Of a stretch of DNA of 64,000 bases, positions 42,337-51,897 are shown in pieces. Every line of letters starts with the position of its first letter. Within the stretch, counting starts at the first letter, position 1. Under the pieces are notes generated by a model, which saw nothing but the letters and a program-made list of their open reading frames with translations, did not search any database and was not told the DNA's origin. The position numbers and the translations under genes were made by a program. The stretch is from contig DATKUL010000002.1 in the NCBI GenBank assembly GCA_035530615.1, positions 62,001-126,000 on the forward strand. Reading direction: 5' to 3'. Source of the stretch: Candidatus Paceibacterota bacterium (GTDB lineage: Bacteria > Actinomycetota > Actinomycetes > Nanopelagicales > Nanopelagicaceae).

Positions 42337-43605
42337 ATGGATGCCGCAACGCTGATCTCCGACCTTGCCACTCGTGCCCGACTTGCTGCCCGCACTCTCA
42401 CAACTGCATCGGGATTAGAGCGAGAGGCAGCCCTACTCGCCATTGCCGATGAAATCGAGAGCAGAAGCGAAGAGATCCTTGCTGCTAATGAAGAAGATAT
42501 GGCTCGTGGTCGCGCCGAAGAGATGCACCCGCAACTTCTTGACCGGTTGCTCCTCACCCCACAAAGGATCCGCGATATTGCAAAGGGCGCACGCCAAGTC
42601 GCCAATCTTCCCGATCCACTCGGAATAACCCTGCGCGAATCCACCCTTCCCAATGGACTTCACCTCAAGCAGGTCACAGTTCCATTCGGGGTTGTCGGCA
42701 TGGTTTATGAAGCTCGCCCCAATGTCACAGTCGATGCCGCTGTCATCCTTCTCATGTCCGGCAACGCCGCACTTCTCCGTGGTTCATCCAGCGCATCCTC
42801 CAGCAATGAAGCACTCGTCAACATAATGCGCGATGCCCTTGCCAAGACAAATATCTCTCCTGATGTCATCCAACTTGTCCCTTCCTACGATCGCGAAACC
42901 GTCCACGCTCTCCTGCACGCCCGTGGCAAAGTAGATCTGGTCATCCCACGCGGAAGCGCGGGGCTTATCCGCATGGTTGTTGATGACTCCACGGTTCCAA
43001 CTATCGAAACTGGCGCCGGTGTCTGCCATGTTTACGTTGACGAATTCGCTGACCTCGAAAAAGCAATTCCAATCCTTCTCAATTCCAAAACCCATCGCCC
43101 AAGTGTCTGCAACGCTGCCGAGACCCTTCTCGTTCACAGTTCAATCGCCGACAAGTTCCTCCCGATGGCACTCATAGCGTTGTCTGAAGCGGGGGTTGTT
43201 CTTCACTCTGACGAGAAGGCACTAAAGATCGCAGACTCCATTCACATCGCCTCGTCATTAGCAACGGATGAGAATTGGCAGACCGAGTACGGCGTTCTTG
43301 AAATGAACATCGGCGTCGTTGATTCCGTCGATGAAGCCATCGACCACATTGCCAAGTACGGAACTCAGCACACCGAAGCAATCGTCACCGAATCAGAAGC
43401 CGCCGCGAACCGATTCATCGCGCTCTCCGATTGCGCTGCCGTCATGGTCAATACTTCAACGCGATTTACCGACGGCGAACAGATGGGCTTTGGCGCCGAA
43501 ATCGGCATCTCCAACCAGAAACTCCACGCTCGTGGTCCAATGGGTCTAGAAGCAATGACCACGACCACCTGGATCGTGAAGGGCGACGGCCAGATTCGAA
43601 GTTAG
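42337..43605 (+). CDS. proA: Gamma-glutamyl phosphate reductase
   Basis: 422 aa. Aldehyde-dehydrogenase-like enzyme that reduces gamma-glutamyl phosphate with NADPH, the second proline step. Signatures: VPFGVVGMVYEARPNVTVDA, the catalytic Cys in HRPSVCNAAETLL, and the C-terminal end MGFGAEIGISNQKLHARGPM, GLEAMTTTTWIVKGDG and QIRS. The TAG stop (43603-43605) overlaps the stop of the convergent abiEii gene within the four bases TTAG. Two partial copies of this 3' end occur downstream at 46692-46782 and 47720-47794. Confidence 0.96.
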   Translation: MDAATLISDLATRARLAARTLTTASGLEREAALLAIADEIESRSEEILAANEEDMARGRAEEMHPQLLDRLLLTPQRIRDIAKGARQVANLPDPLGITLRESTLPNGLHLKQVTVPFGVVGMVYEARPNVTVDAAVILLMSGNAALLRGSSSASSSNEALVNIMRDALAKTNISPDVIQLVPSYDRETVHALLHARGKVDLVIPRGSAGLIRMVVDDSTVPTIETGAGVCHVYVDEFADLEKAIPILLNSKTHRPSVCNAAETLLVHSSIADKFLPMALIALSEAGVVLHSDEKALKIADSIHIASSLATDENWQTEYGVLEMNIGVVDSVDEAIDHIAKYGTQHTEAIVTESEAAANRFIALSDCAAVMVNTSTRFTDGEQMGFGAEIGISNQKLHARGPMGLEAMTTTTWIVKGDGQIRS

Positions 43606-44216
43606 ATGTAAATGAGATTTACGCGATCCCTTTCGGATGTGATGTTAAAAGGGATCAGATCCCATTGAGGAGTACCAGAAAAGAAACCTTTGATGAATGA
43701 GCGACTGGCTTCGCTAAACCCAGTGATGATGTCGCGGCGCAGCGCCTCTCGGACTTGTACGAGTTCATCAATGATCTCCGCGGGATCAAGAAGCATTGCG
43801 GATACATCAATTGCGAAGATTTCTGATGACATTGGATTTAGTGAACGGAGTTTTGGCTCCAATACGGTTCCGCGAAACACAGTGTTAATCTCAATTTTTA
43901 CTTGAGTCGAACCGTTGGTGATTAACAACTGTGATTCATTGACGTCCTCCGCAATAGCACGGTGGACACGTAGCCCCATACCCTCCGAAGTTTGTGCGAT
44001 CTTGCTGACTTCATCGTTGATCGCGAGCAAAGCTTCATCACGTGTTATACCGATCGGAAGAAACACGGCATCAATGTCGACGGACAACCGCGGCATGTCA
44101 TCGAGATACAGATTGATTGCGGTGCCGCCCTTGAGTGCCAATTGGCCACTTTCGAAAACACTCGGCAGAACCTGTAAGAGTAGGCGGACCGCGTTAACGT
44201 ATTCGGTTTGCATCAT
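43602..44216 (-). CDS. AbiEii-family nucleotidyltransferase toxin
   Basis: 204 aa. The nucleotidyltransferase signature LKGGTAINLYLDDMPRLSVD continues with IDAVFLP (GG...RxSxDID), as in AbiEii toxins of type IV systems, which modify tRNA or other targets with nucleotides. ATG 44216 overlaps the antitoxin stop as ATGA. It is shorter than classic AbiEii (about 300 aa) but typical of the minimal DUF1814 domain. The gene ends exactly at the proA stop. Confidence 0.8.
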   Translation of the reverse strand: MMQTEYVNAVRLLLQVLPSVFESGQLALKGGTAINLYLDDMPRLSVDIDAVFLPIGITRDEALLAINDEVSKIAQTSEGMGLRVHRAIAEDVNESQLLITNGSTQVKIEINTVFRGTVLEPKLRSLNPMSSEIFAIDVSAMLLDPAEIIDELVQVREALRRDIITGFSEASRSFIKGFFSGTPQWDLIPFNITSERDRVNLIYI

Positions 44217-44971
44217 GCGGGAAGCACCAACTTCGTACCGTCAGCGAGTTTCCCTATCCATCGCGACGAACTTCCTGTTGGAAGTATGTATTTGGCACGT
44301 AATTGCTCGACATTTATATTGTCAGCTTCATGACCCCACATCAGGAATAGGCGGACTGTTCGCACATTCGTGCATCCTTCAAGCAATTCGCCAGCATGTT
44401 TTACTCGCATACCCTTCGTTGCGAAGAACAGGTGTCGAGCTTCTTCCAAATCCACTTCTGTTTTGATATCTCGCAGAAGTTCAAGCAGGGCACGCTCGCG
44501 CGCGGATACTTTCACGTGTGGTGTTAACTCTGGTGGCGTGAATAATCCTCGACCCGCTACCTTGTTGTTAAGAAGTGACCAAGACCGGTAGTTAGATGGA
44601 AACTGGCTTACAAACCAACTTGGCAATGTGGTTTTTTCCTCGCCCCATAAGGTTAAGGTTTCAACTGTCGATAGATAGTGGGTCACTCCCTGCCACGCTA
44701 AGGCAGTCTTCCCTCCCACGTGTAGCCCAATGATGCGTTCTTGCAGGAATAGTAGGCATTGGTCTCGATCAAGACGCCCGCCTGGAAATGCGTAAACTCC
44801 GGGTCCTAATCGAGTGAGCCACCCAGTACGCGAATAATGAGCGGCGAGGGCGCCCGAGACTCTGTGGTTGGCCAGGGTCTTGAGGTCCAGTGGTTGATCA
44901 TGGCGAACTGAGCGAAGAAGTCCGTTGATTAGAAAATTGCTCTCTATGTCAGCCACTTTCGAAAAATACAC
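44213..44971 (-). CDS. AbiEi-family antitoxin
   Basis: 252 aa. An N-terminal winged helix (LKTLANHRVSGALAAHYSRT then GWLTRLGPGVYAFPGG) and the AbiEi core (LHVGGKTALAWQGVTHYLST, PSWFVSQFPSNY, VSARERALLELLRD) fit type IV antitoxins that act opposite the toxin and repress the operon. I used GTG 44971 with AGGGT upstream; an internal GTG at 44953 is possible. It forms a translationally coupled pair with the toxin. Confidence 0.8.
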   Translation of the reverse strand: MYFSKVADIESNFLINGLLRSVRHDQPLDLKTLANHRVSGALAAHYSRTGWLTRLGPGVYAFPGGRLDRDQCLLFLQERIIGLHVGGKTALAWQGVTHYLSTVETLTLWGEEKTTLPSWFVSQFPSNYRSWSLLNNKVAGRGLFTPPELTPHVKVSARERALLELLRDIKTEVDLEEARHLFFATKGMRVKHAGELLEGCTNVRTVRLFLMWGHEADNINVEQLRAKYILPTGSSSRWIGKLADGTKLVLPA

Positions 44972-45086
44972 CCTTTTTTAATCATTTTCAACCTTTAGCC
45001 TGAGGCTTTTGAACTTACTGAGCGTGTTAGAAGACCTTGGCTGATTCCTTGCATACGGTGGCCGCAAGGGCAGCCCAGAGTAGGTT

Positions 45087-45111
45087 ACAGTTATTGCAGA
45101 TGACAGTTATT
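45087..45111 (+). promoter_or_regulatory. Direct repeat upstream of the HTH antitoxin
   Basis: ACAGTTATT occurs at 45087-45095 and 45103-45111, 16 bp apart, ending 16 bases before the ATG of the HTH gene. Likely operator sites for that gene's own product. Confidence 0.4.
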
Positions 45112-45126
45112 ACACTTGGAGATGCT

Positions 45127-45594
45127 ATGGCAAGTCCATCTGCCGTAACTCAGGTTACGGCCAATAAAAGTGAACGAGAGAATGCCACAGAAGTATTAGC
45201 TTTTTTCGCTTCGCATGGAACTAACGTAAAAATTGTCGCAAAGGATGGATCCTCGCTCAAATTAAGTCGTGCGCTGACAGAAGTATTGGAAAGTGCGGCA
45301 GATCTTGTCGAACGCACAGGCCAAGTACATCTTGATAATGCAGAGTCTCAGTGGCTCAGTCCAAACGATGCTGCTGCACTGCTCGGCATTAGTCGGCCCA
45401 CTGTTCTTAAAATGATCGACGAAGGTCTCATGCAAGCAGAGAATGTGCCGGGTAGCAGCGCCCATAGACGCTTACTTAGATCAAGTGTTGAGTCATTCAA
45501 GGTCGAACGCGATGTATTTCACGGACAAATGAATAAGGCGGCTGAACAGGCAATCAAGACAGGTCTCTTTTCTCGGGCTGCCAGGAAACATTGA
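45127..45594 (+). CDS. Excisionase-type HTH antitoxin, orphan
   Basis: 155 aa from ATG 45127, which has GGAG five bases upstream. The C-terminal half holds a MerR/excisionase-like helix-turn-helix: WLSPNDAAALLGISRPTVLK followed by MIDEGLMQAENVPGSSAHRR. The N-terminal half (VLAFFASHGTNVKIVAKDGS) matches antitoxins that usually precede a PIN-domain toxin. Here the stop is followed by TTGACGGCAATTGAGTCCAA, which reads MTAIESN and then stops after a few codons, like the first residues of a deleted PIN gene. So the toxin is probably lost. Confidence 0.7.
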   Translation: MASPSAVTQVTANKSERENATEVLAFFASHGTNVKIVAKDGSSLKLSRALTEVLESAADLVERTGQVHLDNAESQWLSPNDAAALLGISRPTVLKMIDEGLMQAENVPGSSAHRRLLRSSVESFKVERDVFHGQMNKAAEQAIKTGLFSRAARKH

Positions 45595-45694
45595 CGGCAA
45601 TTGAGTCCAATGAATTAACTAACTGAATTAATTAAGTAATAGTCAAAACTGTCCCTGTCATCCGTTCGCTTCTTTGGAACAGACAGTTAGGGGT

Positions 45695-45736
45695 TTGAAT
45701 CCCATCGTGTATCTGGTACAAAATCTCGTACCAGAT
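45695..45736 (+). promoter_or_regulatory. Promoter and palindromic operator of yefM-yoeB
   Basis: Possible promoter TTGAAT (45695-45700), 16-bp spacer, TACAAA (45717-45722). The perfect inverted repeat ATCTGGTAC (45711-45719) / GTACCAGAT (45728-45736) overlaps the -10 box, as expected for autoregulation by a YefM/YoeB complex. Confidence 0.6.
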
Positions 45737-45773
45737 GCTAGGGTTCTCTCTTGGGTAAGAAAAGGAGCACATC

Positions 45774-46118
45774 ATGGTCATAACTGCCTCGGAAGCTCGG
45801 GCACAACTCTTTCCACTAATCGAACAGGTTAACAACGACAGTATGCCAATTACCATCACATCAAAGAAGGGCAACGCCGTCTTGGTCTCGGAGAGCGAAT
45901 GGGAATCAATGATCGAGACAATGTATTTACTTAGAACCCCAACCAACCGAGAGCGCCTTGCCAGAAGTCGCGCTGATGTCGCAGCGGGAAGGTTGATTGA
46001 ATTTACGCTGCCACTTTCCAGCGCTTCTCGGGTAAAAAACAAAGTCACTAAAAGCAAGAAAGTGACGACCCCTACGAAAGCAACTAAGAAAGTAACAAAT
46101 AAAAAAGTTTCCTCTTAA
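45774..46118 (+). CDS. YefM/Phd-family antitoxin with lysine-rich tail
   Basis: 114 aa. The N-terminal Phd/YefM domain is typical: MVITASEARAQLFPLIEQVN then ITSKKGNAVLVSESEWESM. After about residue 80 the usual toxin-binding region is followed by an unusual Lys/Thr-rich end (KNKVTKSKKVTTPTKATKK). ATG 45774 has AAAAGGAG upstream. The stop overlaps yoeB as TAATG. Confidence 0.85.
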   Translation: MVITASEARAQLFPLIEQVNNDSMPITITSKKGNAVLVSESEWESMIETMYLLRTPTNRERLARSRADVAAGRLIEFTLPLSSASRVKNKVTKSKKVTTPTKATKKVTNKKVSS

Positions 46119-46393
46119 TGCCAAAGGAGCCATCACTCAGGAAACTTAAACTTTCAGAAGATGCCTGGGAAGACTTAAAGTTTTGGGAAAGTACCAGTCC
46201 AAAAACAGTTGAACGTATTAATGCGTTGGTTGATTCAATTATGAAAAGTCCAAGTACAGGAATCGGTAAACCAGAGAAACTTAAATATGAACTTTCAGGA
46301 ACGTGGTCTAGGCGCATTAACCACAAAGACCGAATTGTTTACCAAGTTGAGGATGAAACGCTAATTATTTTGCATCTTCGAGACCACTACTAG
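46118..46393 (+). CDS. YoeB/Txe-family mRNA interferase toxin
   Basis: 91 aa RelE-fold toxin. Family pattern: LSEDAWEDLKFWESTSPKTV, then KPEKLKYELSGTWSRRINHK and DRIVYQVEDETLIILHLRDHY. The conserved Glu, Arg and terminal HY region used in ribosome-dependent mRNA cleavage are present. ATG 46118 overlaps the antitoxin stop by one base. No frame damage is seen, so the pair may be active. Confidence 0.88.
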   Translation: MPKEPSLRKLKLSEDAWEDLKFWESTSPKTVERINALVDSIMKSPSTGIGKPEKLKYELSGTWSRRINHKDRIVYQVEDETLIILHLRDHY

Positions 46394-46424
46394 TTGAATG
46401 AGGTTCCCCGAAGATAAGGCGCAA

Positions 46425-46691
46425 TCACGATGGCTCTTTTTGGTTTATTGAAGTATTTACAAAAAGTCGCCAACGGCTGATTCTTTTCCCACTCTTAGTT
46501 TGCCCTGGGTCTAAATGGCTGACCAGATAGTCATGATCAAGAAACTTTATTTTGGATGCCCTAACTCGATTAGTTGTTTTCACCACAGTTGGTCTAAAGA
46601 CTTGCTCGGTGAGAGCCCAGTGCCTTGCTGCGGTCCACCCCGAGAAGTAACAGGGTGACCAAACTTCAGTAGCTACCACTAAGGCATCGTT
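46425..46691 (-). pseudogene. Fragment of an AbiEi-type antitoxin
   Basis: On the minus strand the frame from 46691 reads ALVVATEVWSPCYFSGWTAA then RHWALTEQVFRPTVVKTTNR, which resembles the core of AbiEi-like antitoxins (SPCYFSGW..A..HW.LTEQ.F). Similarity fades after about 46500, and the frame stops at 46425. The start is missing: the fragment is joined directly to the proA 3'-end copy at 46692. It is a different lineage from the intact AbiEi at 44213. Confidence 0.55.
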
Positions 46692-46782
46692 CGACCACAT
46701 CGCCAAGTACGGAACCCAACACACCGAAGCGATGACCACGACCACTTGGATTGTGAAGGGAACTGGTCAGATTAGAGGATAG
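46692..46782 (+). pseudogene. Partial copy 1 of the proA 3' end
   Basis: The sequence reads DHIAKYGTQHTEA followed in frame by MTTTTWIVKGTGQIRG and a TAG stop. The first part matches proA codons at 43341-43380 with only silent third-base changes; the second matches 43555-43605. The 58 codons between are deleted, at a short repeat GAAGCAAT that flanks the deletion in the intact gene. Four bases later comes the stop codon of convergent mazF, mirroring the proA/abiEii junction. Confidence 0.85.
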
Positions 46783-46786
46783 AGAA

Positions 46787-47113
46787 TTAGATTGAAAGCG
46801 CTGCTTTCAATCCTTCATTCAGATTCGACATGGCCCCTGGGCTTAGGGCACCAAGATCTCTGAGGATTTCATCTTCATACAGTTCAACGATGTCATCGCA
46901 GACAGCCCGACCGAGAAATACTTCTCCCTTACCCAATTCGACAATGCTGGGAATTCTTGGTTTTGACGAAGTCGTGAGCCGCACGGCGAGTACTTGCGGA
47001 AGCTGGGAATTGCGCTGATTGTTCGAAACGACAACAAAATACTTTTCATTCTTAAGGTTGGATAATTTTGCTGCATACACTCTGCCACGAAGAAGTGGCC
47101 AAGGGGAGTTCAT
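46787..47113 (-). CDS. mazF: MazF/PemK-type mRNA interferase
   Basis: 108 aa from ATG 47113, which overlaps the mazE stop as ATGA. The start WPLLRGRVYAAKL and the fold pattern KYFVVVSNNQRNSQLPQVLA then VRLTTSSK and VFLGRAVCDDIVEL match the PemK/MazF barrel, an RNase that cuts free mRNA. A few catalytic positions differ from E. coli MazF, so activity is not certain. Its 3' end abuts the proA copy. Confidence 0.75.
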   Translation of the reverse strand: MNSPWPLLRGRVYAAKLSNLKNEKYFVVVSNNQRNSQLPQVLAVRLTTSSKPRIPSIVELGKGEVFLGRAVCDDIVELYEDEILRDLGALSPGAMSNLNEGLKAALSI

Positions 47114-47433
47114 GCTTCTTCTGACCATGTAGGACGACGGCGACGGGCGCCTGTTTTTTGTTGTTTGGATTCAACTTTTGATAGTGAGGCGGCGATTTCG
47201 GCATATCCCTCGAGCTCGGCCCTCTGTCGAACCGCGGCGATTCCAGCTTTGAATATCGCGGTCAATAGGGCGGCCTCGCTCATTTTTGCGTTGAATACTT
47301 TCATCTCAGATAGTTGCTCAAGAGCAATCTGGTACGAGGACGATTCACGGATCTTGGAAAGATCGCGCTCATTCTGCTCAGTGAGCGGGAGAGATGTTCG
47401 GCGTACAACTGGGGCTTGAATGCGAGTTGTCAT
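47110..47433 (-). CDS. Antitoxin partner of MazF
   Basis: 107 aa. The N-terminus (VVRRTSLPLTEQNERDLSKI) and the helical middle part resemble actinobacterial MazF antitoxins rather than the AbrB-type MazE of E. coli. The C-terminus is basic (KTGARRRRPTWSEEA). ATG 47433 is preceded by a promoter whose predicted start coincides with the ATG, so the mRNA is probably leaderless. Confidence 0.65.
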   Translation of the reverse strand: MTTRIQAPVVRRTSLPLTEQNERDLSKIRESSSYQIALEQLSEMKVFNAKMSEAALLTAIFKAGIAAVRQRAELEGYAEIAASLSKVESKQQKTGARRRRPTWSEEA

Positions 47434-47440
47434 GCCTAAG

Positions 47441-47469
47441 ATAATGCCACAGTAAGTGATGCACTACAA
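47441..47469 (-). promoter_or_regulatory. Promoter of the mazE-like/mazF pair
   Basis: On the minus strand TTGTAG (47469-47464), 17-bp spacer, CATTAT (47446-47441). The start point would fall at the ATG (47433). The -35 box lies within the 9-mer TTGTAGTGC that recurs at 47844-47852 and 47903-47911. Confidence 0.5.
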
Positions 47470-47719
47470 CTCGCAGCCGGTGCCTGTTAGAGAGCCTCGG
47501 CGGTGGACTTGGCCACGGCGCTGGCACAGGAGGGCGAGAGTACGCCGAGGCCAGTGCGCTCGGACCCTGCTACTTACCCGATTTCTTGCTTTCACGTTCA
47601 TGCGAACGAATGAATTACCAGTGATGCAATCCCTTTAATCTTTGAGGGTGAGCGGTCCAGTTTTAGTCTTGAATATGAGTGCATAAATGTGGAATAACAA
47701 AGATAGTGCCGAAGGTTGA

Positions 47720-47794
47720 TGGAGGCAGATGAACCTTGAGGCTGCGACTACGACGACCGAGATTGTGAACGGGATGGGTCAGATTCGGAAATGA
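47720..47794 (+). pseudogene. Partial copy 2 of the proA 3' end, more diverged
   Basis: The frame reads WRQMNLEAATTTTEIVNG then MGQIRK and TGA, aligning with proA GPMGLEAMTTTTWIVKGDGQ and IRS. Several residues differ, so it comes from an older event or a different donor than copy 1. It is followed by the region leading to the KAP NTPase. Confidence 0.75.
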
Positions 47795-47843
47795 AAGGAA
47801 TGCCCTCGTGCCAGTGGTTTTCGCCTTCCTTATGGGCGAGTGA

Positions 47844-47935
47844 GCACTACAAACATGTCGACTCTGTGTTGGAATTGTCCAGTAAGAAATTTTTTTGTCG
47901 GATTGTAGTGCCCTACGAATCCAATTACCTGGACA
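47844..47935. repeat. Interleaved inverted repeats upstream of the KAP gene
   Basis: GCACTACAA (47844-47852) pairs with TTGTAGTGC (47903-47911); TTGTCCAG (47875-47882) pairs with CTGGACA (47929-47935). The order A-B-A'-B' is that of a pseudoknot if transcribed, or of paired protein sites. Confidence 0.4.
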
Positions 47936-48071
47936 CTGCGCTCTGAGTCATGAGATTCTGACCATCTGTATTCTGATGGTGGTTTGTTAAAGAATTCCGC
48001 TCGAGGGACCGTGCCGAAATCTCATAACGATTCCTTTCAGGAATACTTAGGTTCAAAGGGGAGATTTCACT

Positions 48072-51000
48072 ATGCACGAAGTCGAGAACCATCAATCAGT
48101 AGATTCTCAGAGTTCGCGAGCGGGTAGAGTGCAACTCTTGTCGGAGACGCCATCTCAAAAGGATCTTTTTGACGGGCAAGCGCATGAAAAAGTCGCATCG
48201 GCAATTACGAGTCTCCTAGAAGACCCGGACTTGGTATCCGGGAGAATCGTTGGCCTAGAAGGCGCCTGGGGCTCTGGAAAATCCACGATTGTCGGCTTAG
48301 TGGTCACTAAAGTGGATCCAGGTAAGACTGTGACCGTGATGTTTGATTCTTGGGCACACCAGGCAGATCCGTTGAGAAGAGCGTTTCTAGAAACTGTAAT
48401 AACCACCATGGCGAAACTCGGTCACCTTAGTGAGAACTTGGCGGATGGGTTCCGAAATCAGCTTTCCGGCAAGGCAACGAAGGTCATTACCAATTCTTCT
48501 GCCTTCTTGTCTAAAGAAGGGTTAATTGTTTCGTTATCATCACTCTTAATGCCATTAGGGGTACACCTGTCTTCTATCAAAACGACAACTTGGCAGGGGT
48601 CGTACCGTGTACTTGGAAATATTCTCTTAGTTGCGCCCCTGCTTGTAATCATCGCCATGTTGGGATTTCAAAAAGTGGGAAAGTATTTGGTCAAGAGGTC
48701 GGAAATTAACGAGAAAGGTCTAGAAAATTCGAGAGGAAGTGTTTGGCGAAAGAGGCTATCCGAACTCGAGCCTCTGAGTTTTTTCGCTAAAAGTCAGAAA
48801 ATCAATACTACTGCGCTTGGAGTCGAAAGAGGAGAGCCAACTTCTCTGGAATTCGAAAAGTTGTTCAAAGAGATCGTGGAGGCGTCGACGCTAGATTCTC
48901 GGCAGTTATTAATAATTTTAGATAATCTGGATCGCGTTGACGTGGAGGTAGCACGACAGTTATTTGCAACGATGCAAACATTTATTGAAATATCACGAAC
49001 TTGGAATCCCTCACATCACACGAAAATATGGTTGCTCATTCCCTATGATCCCCAGGGATTGGACTTGCTTTGGAATCCGGTTGAGTTAGGAAATGATACG
49101 AGTGATGAGAATACATTGCCACTTCCATTTACAACTCCCGTCTCCGTAGCATTTATTGAAAAGTTATTTAACGTGCGATTCGAAGCACCTCCTTTAGTTG
49201 TCTCAGACTGGCACAAGCGTCTTCGTGAACTTCTCGCGGAAGCTTTACCAGGACATGCTGAGGACGAGTTTGATGAAGTTCGCAAACTTCGGGTTCGGTA
49301 TGTGCAATTTCAATCCAGATCGGTCGTATCACGGGAAGCCCCAACTCCGCGTCAACTCAAAAATTTTGTGAATCAAATCGGCATAATCCGTAGATTGACA
49401 AATACTGTTCCCCTGCCTCAAGTCGCATATTATGTACTTCTTCGACAAGATAGAATCAATGTGGCGGAGATGCTTTTGGGATCTCCGCCTCGAAATTCGA
49501 AGGTTGAGGCCCCCCTTGGCCAGGATTTGGCGACAAATTTGCTGGCATTGCACTTTGGAACGGATCCAAAGCTAGCCCAACAACTCTTCATAAGTCCAAG
49601 GCTGATTGGGGCATTTGGCGAAGGATCTGTCGATGGAATCGTAAACCTAAAGACGATGCCTGGATTTATTGAAGTGGTTGAGAATCTCGATGTTGACGAC
49701 ATGATATTGGCTGGCGGAAGTGAACTAATGAGAAATCTCGGGACCCTTTACTCGGCGAAAGTTTTCGAAAGCCCAGAATTAGGTAAGTGGCTCGAGAAAG
49801 ATGTATCTCGGATTGCTCGCAAAGTGAGTTCTTGGACCCTAGACGGCAGCGCATCGGGGGTAGGTCTTGCCTTGATTTTTAGTAAGTTGAAACCAGATGG
49901 CCCAAGCCTTGCTGACTTAATTGCCAAGATTTCACCTATTTCTGTGAATCCGAATCCGGTCGAAAGCGAAGCATATTTTCTTGGTTTTGTGGGGTTCCTG
50001 AGCGCAATGACTCATGACTTCTTCCCGAATGATTTATTCGAAGTGCCAATTCAGTTTCCCACAGTGAATCTAGTGCTTCATGTTTCAAGGTTATTGGAAT
50101 TAGTTAGTGATACGACGGATTTGAGTAGAGTGCAGATCCAAAATACTCCTGAAGAGATCGCTCGTGCGCTAGTCGATTCATTGCAAGATGATCAAATTCA
50201 AGGGCTTGAAACTGCTCTTCGGTGGCTTCTAAATCTCGGAGGGAAGATTGACTTGGCTGTTCTGCAACTAGGTCTTACTCAAGCTTTGGATGCAAGAGCC
50301 ATAGATTCCAAGGATAAAATAGTTTCTTCCATTAAACTGATGGAAGAAGTATCTCTAGAAACAAATACCGACCAGTTCTTAAGACCTTTGGCCGAGAGTG
50401 GTGCCCTTTTGCATTTGACGTCGGTAACTTCCGGAAATGATTTTTTTGATTTGATGGCAAAGGTCACCCTGCTTCATTTGATAGCAACTCCCTCAATGAC
50501 AGAAACCGTTCTATGTGGAGACTCTCGGAGTGGAAAACAAATTTTAGAGCAAGTCCTTCTATATCCTGCCAACAACACTCAAGTGATCGCAGAGCAATCA
50601 CTATGGCTCTCAGAGCATTCCGACAAAGCATTCTTAATCCTCCAAAGCGTCAGACCGTATTTCCCCCTATGGGTTTCTTCGTTAATGCATGATCTTGCAA
50701 GATTATCTTCCCTTGTCATTAGTGCAGATCAATATTTGTCTCATTTGGAGTACTTGCGATCTGAATTCATTCCTTCGGAATTGGATTCAATTTCCCGACA
50801 CTTGTTCGTTATGCAGACGAGTCGTCTATACATCATGAGCAATTCTTCTGATATCGAATTAGCAATTTCAGCATTGAGAATTTCTCAATCAGAACCCGAC
50901 ATAGGGTTAGAAATACGCGAATGGGCCAAAGAAATAGTTTTAGGTTTAAAGGCAACGGATTGGGAAGTTGCCCTTTTGAATCCAGAGGGGGCCCCCCTTC

Positions 51001-51518
51001 TGACCTTGGCGGTATTGTTGGCGGACACCGATGAAAGTCCTTTGAACCCCACCGGGCTCCCTAGTGCGCTTCATTTGCATTTCGATAGGCTCGCAGAGGG
51101 ATCTGCGGTCTGGCATCCGGCTCCGGAGATTTTTGTAAAAATAACTTCTCTACTTCCCAGCGCATCAAGGCAAGTTATCGCTCAGGAATTGTGCTCGAAA
51201 TTGCAGCCACTTGATGGCGAGGTTCCTTCGGAGCTGCTCTTAACGTATCAAATTTTTCTGGGCTCTGAAAAGAAGTTTCGAACTCATTTAGCACTGCCAC
51301 ATTTAATCGAACGAGCCGTCTCTAAGCAACAATGGGGGACAGTGCAATGGATCGTCGAATTAGCGGATAGATACAAAGATACGCTTCAAACGAGCAGAGG
51401 GTCTGATGGTATGGAGCACCTCAAAGTGACGGTGAAAGAGAAATTGGGCGAATTCCAAGATCCTCAAGCAAGCCCACCCGAATGCCTTCTAGCTCTCGCT
51501 AAGAAACTTGGCTTATAA
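48072..51518 (+). CDS. Large KAP-family P-loop NTPase
   Basis: 1148 aa. Walker A GLEGAWGSGKST is at about 61-72 and Walker B LLIILDNLDRVD at about 279-290. Between them lie two hydrophobic segments (GLIVSLSSLLMPLGVHL, ILLVAPLLVIIAMLGF), the hallmark of KAP NTPases whose P-loop domain is split by membrane helices. The remaining 800 residues are largely helical, without a domain I can name. KAP proteins are linked to phage exclusion (PifA type). ATG 48072 has GGGGAG upstream. It stands alone at the end of the toxin-antitoxin cluster, before gatC, and is AT-richer than the core genes. Confidence 0.8.
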   Translation: MHEVENHQSVDSQSSRAGRVQLLSETPSQKDLFDGQAHEKVASAITSLLEDPDLVSGRIVGLEGAWGSGKSTIVGLVVTKVDPGKTVTVMFDSWAHQADPLRRAFLETVITTMAKLGHLSENLADGFRNQLSGKATKVITNSSAFLSKEGLIVSLSSLLMPLGVHLSSIKTTTWQGSYRVLGNILLVAPLLVIIAMLGFQKVGKYLVKRSEINEKGLENSRGSVWRKRLSELEPLSFFAKSQKINTTALGVERGEPTSLEFEKLFKEIVEASTLDSRQLLIILDNLDRVDVEVARQLFATMQTFIEISRTWNPSHHTKIWLLIPYDPQGLDLLWNPVELGNDTSDENTLPLPFTTPVSVAFIEKLFNVRFEAPPLVVSDWHKRLRELLAEALPGHAEDEFDEVRKLRVRYVQFQSRSVVSREAPTPRQLKNFVNQIGIIRRLTNTVPLPQVAYYVLLRQDRINVAEMLLGSPPRNSKVEAPLGQDLATNLLALHFGTDPKLAQQLFISPRLIGAFGEGSVDGIVNLKTMPGFIEVVENLDVDDMILAGGSELMRNLGTLYSAKVFESPELGKWLEKDVSRIARKVSSWTLDGSASGVGLALIFSKLKPDGPSLADLIAKISPISVNPNPVESEAYFLGFVGFLSAMTHDFFPNDLFEVPIQFPTVNLVLHVSRLLELVSDTTDLSRVQIQNTPEEIARALVDSLQDDQIQGLETALRWLLNLGGKIDLAVLQLGLTQALDARAIDSKDKIVSSIKLMEEVSLETNTDQFLRPLAESGALLHLTSVTSGNDFFDLMAKVTLLHLIATPSMTETVLCGDSRSGKQILEQVLLYPANNTQVIAEQSLWLSEHSDKAFLILQSVRPYFPLWVSSLMHDLARLSSLVISADQYLSHLEYLRSEFIPSELDSISRHLFVMQTSRLYIMSNSSDIELAISALRISQSEPDIGLEIREWAKEIVLGLKATDWEVALLNPEGAPLLTLAVLLADTDESPLNPTGLPSALHLHFDRLAEGSAVWHPAPEIFVKITSLLPSASRQVIAQELCSKLQPLDGEVPSELLLTYQIFLGSEKKFRTHLALPHLIERAVSKQQWGTVQWIVELADRYKDTLQTSRGSDGMEHLKVTVKEKLGEFQDPQASPPECLLALAKKLGL

Positions 51519-51597
51519 AGGCATTTACTAGCTGTTGCGACAATCATTTCTCCAGTGGCAAATTCGTAGTTAGAGGCTCTTCTAATAGACTCCACCC

Positions 51598-51897
51598 ATG
51601 AGCAACTTGTCGCCAAAAGACCTAGCGAATCTAGCCCGCCTGGCTCGAATCGAGATGACTGATCAGGAACTTGCCCATCTATCCACTGAGATGGATGTCA
51701 TTCTGAACGCGGTAGCCCGCGTGCAGGAGGTGGCAACGGCTGATATTCCGCCGACTTCACACCCTTTGCCTTTGCGCAATGTGACCCGTCCTGATGTAGT
51801 GGCTCCGAGCCTTACCCCAGAGCAGGCGCTCTCAGGGGCTCCGGCAAAAGAAGATGGCCGCTTCCGGGTGCCACAGATTTTGGGGGAGGAAGCATGA
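51598..51897 (+). CDS. gatC: Glu-tRNA(Gln)/Asp-tRNA(Asn) amidotransferase subunit C
   Basis: 99 aa. The start [20 protein letters not shown] and the end [14 protein letters not shown] are typical. GatC stabilises the GatA/GatB complex. The stop overlaps gatA as ATGA. Confidence 0.94.

Follow-up and report, generated by a model that had tools for sequence, protein, structure and literature searches.

The window, that is, the whole stretch of 64,000 nucleotides that was analysed, contains on its plus strand an intact frame of 3447 bp (48072-51518) that begins with ATG, has no internal stop and encodes a protein of 1148 aa. A KAP NTPase of this length had been placed there by a first reading made from the letters only (the sequence-only reading), and Pfam confirmed it: KAP_NTPase (PF07693) matched residues 40-442 with 72.9 bits against a curated cut-off of 20 (E 3.5e-20), and it was the sole Pfam domain above cut-off in the protein. 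The frame is not a product of chance, since its best match, a protein of Acidithrix ferrooxidans, is homologous over the full length (31% identity over residues 11-1142, E 2e-147), and it has 72 full-length homologues of similar size. A Shine-Dalgarno-like sequence, aaggggag, was read at 48056-48063 (plus strand), its last base located 8 bases 5′ of the ATG. Promoter and terminator scans gave results no better than chance. The G+C content of the gene was 45%, compared with 53-55% in the flanking core genes, and it was the only KAP NTPase gene detected in its own genome of 2.16 Mb.

The KAP gene is the last one of an insert, about 8 kb long, that lies between proA (42337-43605, plus strand) and gatC (51598-51897, plus strand), which were recognised by synteny, for proA in same-genus genomes, as the left and right core flanks of the junction (43606-51597). 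Its position at the end of a toxin-antitoxin (TA) cluster, as proposed previously, was confirmed by the Pfam matches of the AbiE, YefM-YoeB and PemK neighbours. Abutting the proA stop there is an AbiEii-like toxin gene on the minus strand (43602-44216, 204 aa; Pfam 2.9e-18) which covers positions 1-134 of the 238 of the profile; it is probably truncated at the C-terminal end, and the pair that it forms with the AbiEi antitoxin (44213-44971, minus strand; Pfam 6.2e-24, PADLOC 7.2e-53) may be inactive. It is followed by an HTH_17 excisionase-type protein (45037-45594, plus strand; Pfam 6.2e-8, NCBIfam 2.2e-8) that has no obvious toxin partner and is possibly an orphan antitoxin, by a YefM/Phd antitoxin (45774-46118, plus strand; Pfam 3e-19) with its YoeB toxin (46118-46393, plus strand; Pfam 1.2e-30), and by a PemK/MazF-like toxin (46787-47128, minus strand; Pfam 1.5e-7) with a putative antitoxin (47110-47433, minus strand). 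No integrase and no qatBCD genes were recognised in the island, nor an adenosine deaminase RdrB near the KAP gene, whose Pfam-identified neighbours were the TA genes and downstream of which lie gatCAB; restriction-modification genes do not adjoin it either.

The same junction was surveyed in the same-genus genomes in which both flanks could be read. In 11 of them it was empty, with 16-32 bp between proA and gatC (L114-L119, L121, and L123-L126), and four carried differing inserts (L112, L113, L120, and L122). At this site genome G006 (L120) holds a PemK pair whose toxin is 80% identical and whose antitoxin is 60% identical to those of the window. The insert of G015 (L113) consists of two small ORFs that, by inspection, read like HicA and HicB, and that of G013 (L122) has approximately the same size. 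The near-sister genome G017, with a GatA 97% identical, encodes in this place a protein of 427 aa (L112:1625-2908) which had no Pfam or PADLOC match; an in-frame stop was observed in the end of proA beside this gene. The proA-gatC junction is a hotspot for small cargo of TA type.

The KAP/AAA+ NTPase domain, as delimited by Pfam and the AlphaFold model, comprises residues 20-442 (48129-49397; all features of the protein lie on the plus strand). Walker A is GAWGSGKST (residues 64-72, 48261-48287) and is conserved in the family alignment. Walker B is found within LIILDNLDR (residues 280-288, 48909-48935), where D284, N285, D287, and R288 are invariant, and a sensor-2-like motif, TPRQLKNFVN (residues 425-434, 49344-49373), contains the invariant P426, R427, and N434. 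The remaining invariant residues, W94, L106, F261, and K364, are also located in the NTPase. Between Walker A and Walker B, hydropathy predicts two transmembrane helices, formed by residues 151-169 (48522-48578) and 180-198 (48609-48665), and two such segments occur in 49 of the 54 aligned members; a P-loop domain split by two membrane helices is what the sequence-only reading had described. The significant matches to PADLOC, NCBIfam, and PHROGs were all confined to the N-terminal P-loop region, and the STAND-type profiles AAA_16 and NPHP3_N scored under their own Pfam cut-offs. With the AlphaFold model (mean pLDDT 84.3 over the whole protein) as query, the first match in Foldseek was RdrA of RADAR (E 1.4e-4, 976 columns). 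The Z values obtained with VIA-align for the core were 16.6 with archaeal ORC2, 15.8 with RdrA (299 residues), 12.9 with Avs3, and 12.8 with BrxC; the likeness to RdrA resides mainly in the NTPase core, the overall TM-scores being low, around 0.2.

Structure prediction was also suggested earlier as a check on the C-terminal part, which had been taken as about 800 helical residues. In the model this region is indeed all-helical, but shorter, of about 700 residues (448-1148, 49413-51515), and it is predicted as an alpha-solenoid with pLDDT 89.3 for residues 462-1148, HEAT/ARM-like matches only and no housekeeping domain. Taken alone, the tail resembled importin-beta, armadillo, AP2, and other repeat solenoids, a generic arrangement with Z of at most 8.1. 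The profile search of PDB sequences returned mainly Walker-A matches to ABC transporters and designed helical repeats. The model thus gives an RdrA/ORC-like AAA+ core followed by a putative HEAT/ARM-like solenoid. The core is 41% identical to that of the nearest homologue, from Acidithrix, and the tail 25%. When the 20 nearest relatives are compared, the tail has no polar residue conserved at 75% or more, whereas the core keeps about 30. An enzymatic effector in the C-terminus was considered and rejected, for the tail had no Pfam, PDB-sequence, or PHROG match beyond chance, no conserved polar or catalytic residues and only generic fold matches, even if a missing match would still be compatible with an enzyme of a new type. 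Of the sensor or effector proposed for this region, the first fits better: the tail has the look of a solenoid that evolves fast and would act as a sensor or scaffold rather than as an enzymatic effector.

Relatives were sought with a profile-led scan of 84,980 species genomes; 246 were confirmed, of which the best 80 were taken forward. Among these, 72 have a frame that is complete and no shorter than 850 aa, with a median of 1133 aa; they come from many phyla and form a coherent family. A tree built from the NTPase region places the window protein together with Acidithrix and a further sequence from Acidimicrobiia (support 100/99), in a clade that is actinobacterial. No homologue was found in the 20 same-genus genomes searched, and the search of other genomes of the class, at E 1e-20, found none either. 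Some relatives are encoded on plasmids and some adjoin transposases, resolvases, or an integrase-like gene; enterobacterial plasmid proteins of equal size matched the core at 99.9% and the tail at its start only. On a Rhizobium gallicum plasmid (L007:5989-9473) the KAP relative is broken into two frames (622 and 548 aa) that overlap. A phage origin of the gene was rejected, as a search of 50,697 phage records matched nothing. A single-sequence scan of viral contigs also gave no match, and an alignment scan of them gave 11 distant relatives, 6 with long matches.

Clustering of the neighbours of the relatives showed no partner gene common to all of them, and the recurrent groups were mainly restriction-modification (RM) genes. 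Type I genes flank 7 members (L026, L036, L043, L049, L052, L062, and L073), and in four of these (L036, L043, L049, and L052) the KAP gene lies between hsdS and hsdR, either next to them or separated from them by one or more small or single genes. Type IIG enzymes flank 5 members (L011, L017, L033, L039, and L081) and a type III methylase is upstream of KAP in another (L014). One type I locus also includes, together with KAP, an AAA_5 protein of 872 aa (L036:6360-8978). On an IMG/VR contig a full-length relative is directly adjoined by a SIR2-HerA defence pair (L133:3641-6413), and other neighbours match CBASS cyclase, Hhe, NsnA, recombinases, and Tn7-type TnsD/TniQ. To provide a control, HSDR_N matches were counted across 50 of the host genomes and numbered 62 in 217.5 Mb; for the flanks, which total 0.64 Mb, 0.18 genes were expected and 8 were observed, a comparison which treats the loci as independent and which, with four independent cases only, gives P ~4e-5. 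Considering that the RM-linked members are just 15-39% identical to each other, the link between KAP and RM is old or has arisen repeatedly. The survey of homologue context, which had been put forward as a check, found no core, non-defence setting, and the presence of relatives in RM operons suggests that the family is a second layer beside DNA restriction. Taken together, the TA hotspot, the sporadic distribution, and the linkage of homologues to RM genes support the earlier view of the protein as a candidate for phage defence, a role that is deduced from context.

Among the described systems, one relative is PifA of plasmid F, which is membrane-associated and tied to membrane damage (PMC9311878, PMC8594841). 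Its kinship had been noted beforehand and holds for the NTPase core (hhalign 98.7%, profile 22-438); it does not extend to the C-terminus (0.2%), so that membership in PifA was rejected. Both are encoded beside a TA pair; PifA, however, has 741 aa and no clear transmembrane pair. QatA of qatABCD likewise shares the KAP core (NCBIfam 1.5e-10), but with a score of 40.4 bits against an equivalog cut-off of 600 and a C-terminal hhalign of 0.1% membership was rejected, and the QatA compared (633 aa) has no transmembrane segment and an unrelated C-terminus. In RdrA, the best match in Foldseek, an insertion in the AAA+ core ahead of Walker B docks the effector RdrB, and a helical C-terminal lobe is proposed as sensor (PMC9994260). 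The window protein resembles it in having an insertion ahead of Walker B and a predicted alpha-helical C-terminal part, the latter, taken alone, giving generic solenoid matches only, and the position of the KAP hairpin seems comparable to that of the RdrA insertion, which differs in being a four-helix crown; the likeness is structural and mainly of the core. With the STAND proteins Avs there is also some likeness in the core, as seen above for Avs3.

The closest description is that of Tmn. This KAP NTPase has two transmembrane domains of an unusual kind and inhibits phages that include T2 and P1, through a mechanism as yet unexplored; the escape mutations map to the phage DNA-modification gene nmad5 (PMC11846954). 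According to this definition the window protein is similar, being a single-gene KAP NTPase with two predicted transmembrane segments. Tenacibaculum larymnensis LAR25 has one tmnA and one qatA by DefenseFinder (PMC10013915), and three proteins of this genome are clearly KAP: QatA (633 aa, no transmembrane segment), a protein of 752 aa with one transmembrane segment and no C-terminal match, and a member of the family (L072, 1094 aa), the only one with two such segments. Since the other two are eliminated, L072 is probably the reported tmnA, by elimination in a single genome. PADLOC 2.0.0 gave no TmnA match for any member, and this version may not contain a TmnA model. The window protein is nevertheless only 16% identical to L072, and 51 of the 81 non-redundant published Tmn homologues are gammaproteobacterial, in contrast to the actinobacterial clade of the window protein. 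We therefore regard it as a probable divergent Tmn-type NTPase, on the basis of elimination and description instead of direct sequence comparison, and the KAP architecture with two transmembrane helices has probably been described already, as Tmn (PMC11846954).

Taking all this into account, the reading that we favour, with somewhat better than even confidence, is that the gene product is a single-protein, membrane-anchored KAP NTPase of Tmn type with an anti-phage function. By analogy with RdrA and PifA and from the anatomy of the protein, the NTPase would assemble as an RdrA-like ring at the inner membrane, anchored by the hairpin, and the solenoid might sense either a product of the phage or a change that the phage induces. 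ATP turnover would then lead to a conformational change, membrane damage, and abortive infection, as reported for the related PifA. Among the alternatives, the one that survives best, still unlikely, is a defence in which the effector is a separate protein (for example a restriction enzyme, or a host enzyme encoded elsewhere) that the ring remodels or feeds, with the hairpin as a mere tether. The rank of RdrA in Foldseek, the docking of RdrB on a crown that also precedes Walker B (PMC9994260), and the members located between hsdS and hsdR agree with it; however, no partner gene is conserved in the whole family, and the RM genes that recur are absent at the window copy. It is quite improbable that the protein serves or stabilises mobile cargo, by maintenance or by exclusion of competing elements, instead of acting on phages: the TA-type hotspot and the plasmids, transposases, resolvases, and integrase-like gene around relatives fit such a role, but the linkage to RM and SIR2-HerA indicates defence and the island has no recognised integrase. 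That the gene is a non-functional or recently acquired passenger is very improbable, for its occurrence in this genome only, among the same-genus and class genomes searched, and the truncated look of the adjacent AbiEii are set against a frame of full length in which every invariant motif is intact and which is preceded by a good ribosome-binding-like site.

The probable divergent Tmn-type defence protein is thus ordinary in kind and useful in detail. Tmn is known to block phages by a mechanism that is unexplored (PMC11846954), and the present survey adds a broad alignment, a confident structural model, with a predicted membrane hairpin within an RdrA-like NTPase and a solenoid tail that evolves fast, and the repeated linkage to RM loci, which make the question of its trigger and effector specifically testable. 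In this lineage of small genomes the proA-gatC junction stands out as a hotspot of TA cargo and of probable defence cargo. A further idea, which we hold as rather doubtful, is that phylum-wide membrane KAP NTPases of about 1100 aa with a HEAT/ARM-like sensor tail are a dedicated back-up of RM, the window protein being a stand-alone offshoot; if true, this back-up family would be part of hsdMS-KAP-hsdR loci and of type IIG loci, and would fire on phages that evade restriction, for example those with modified DNA.
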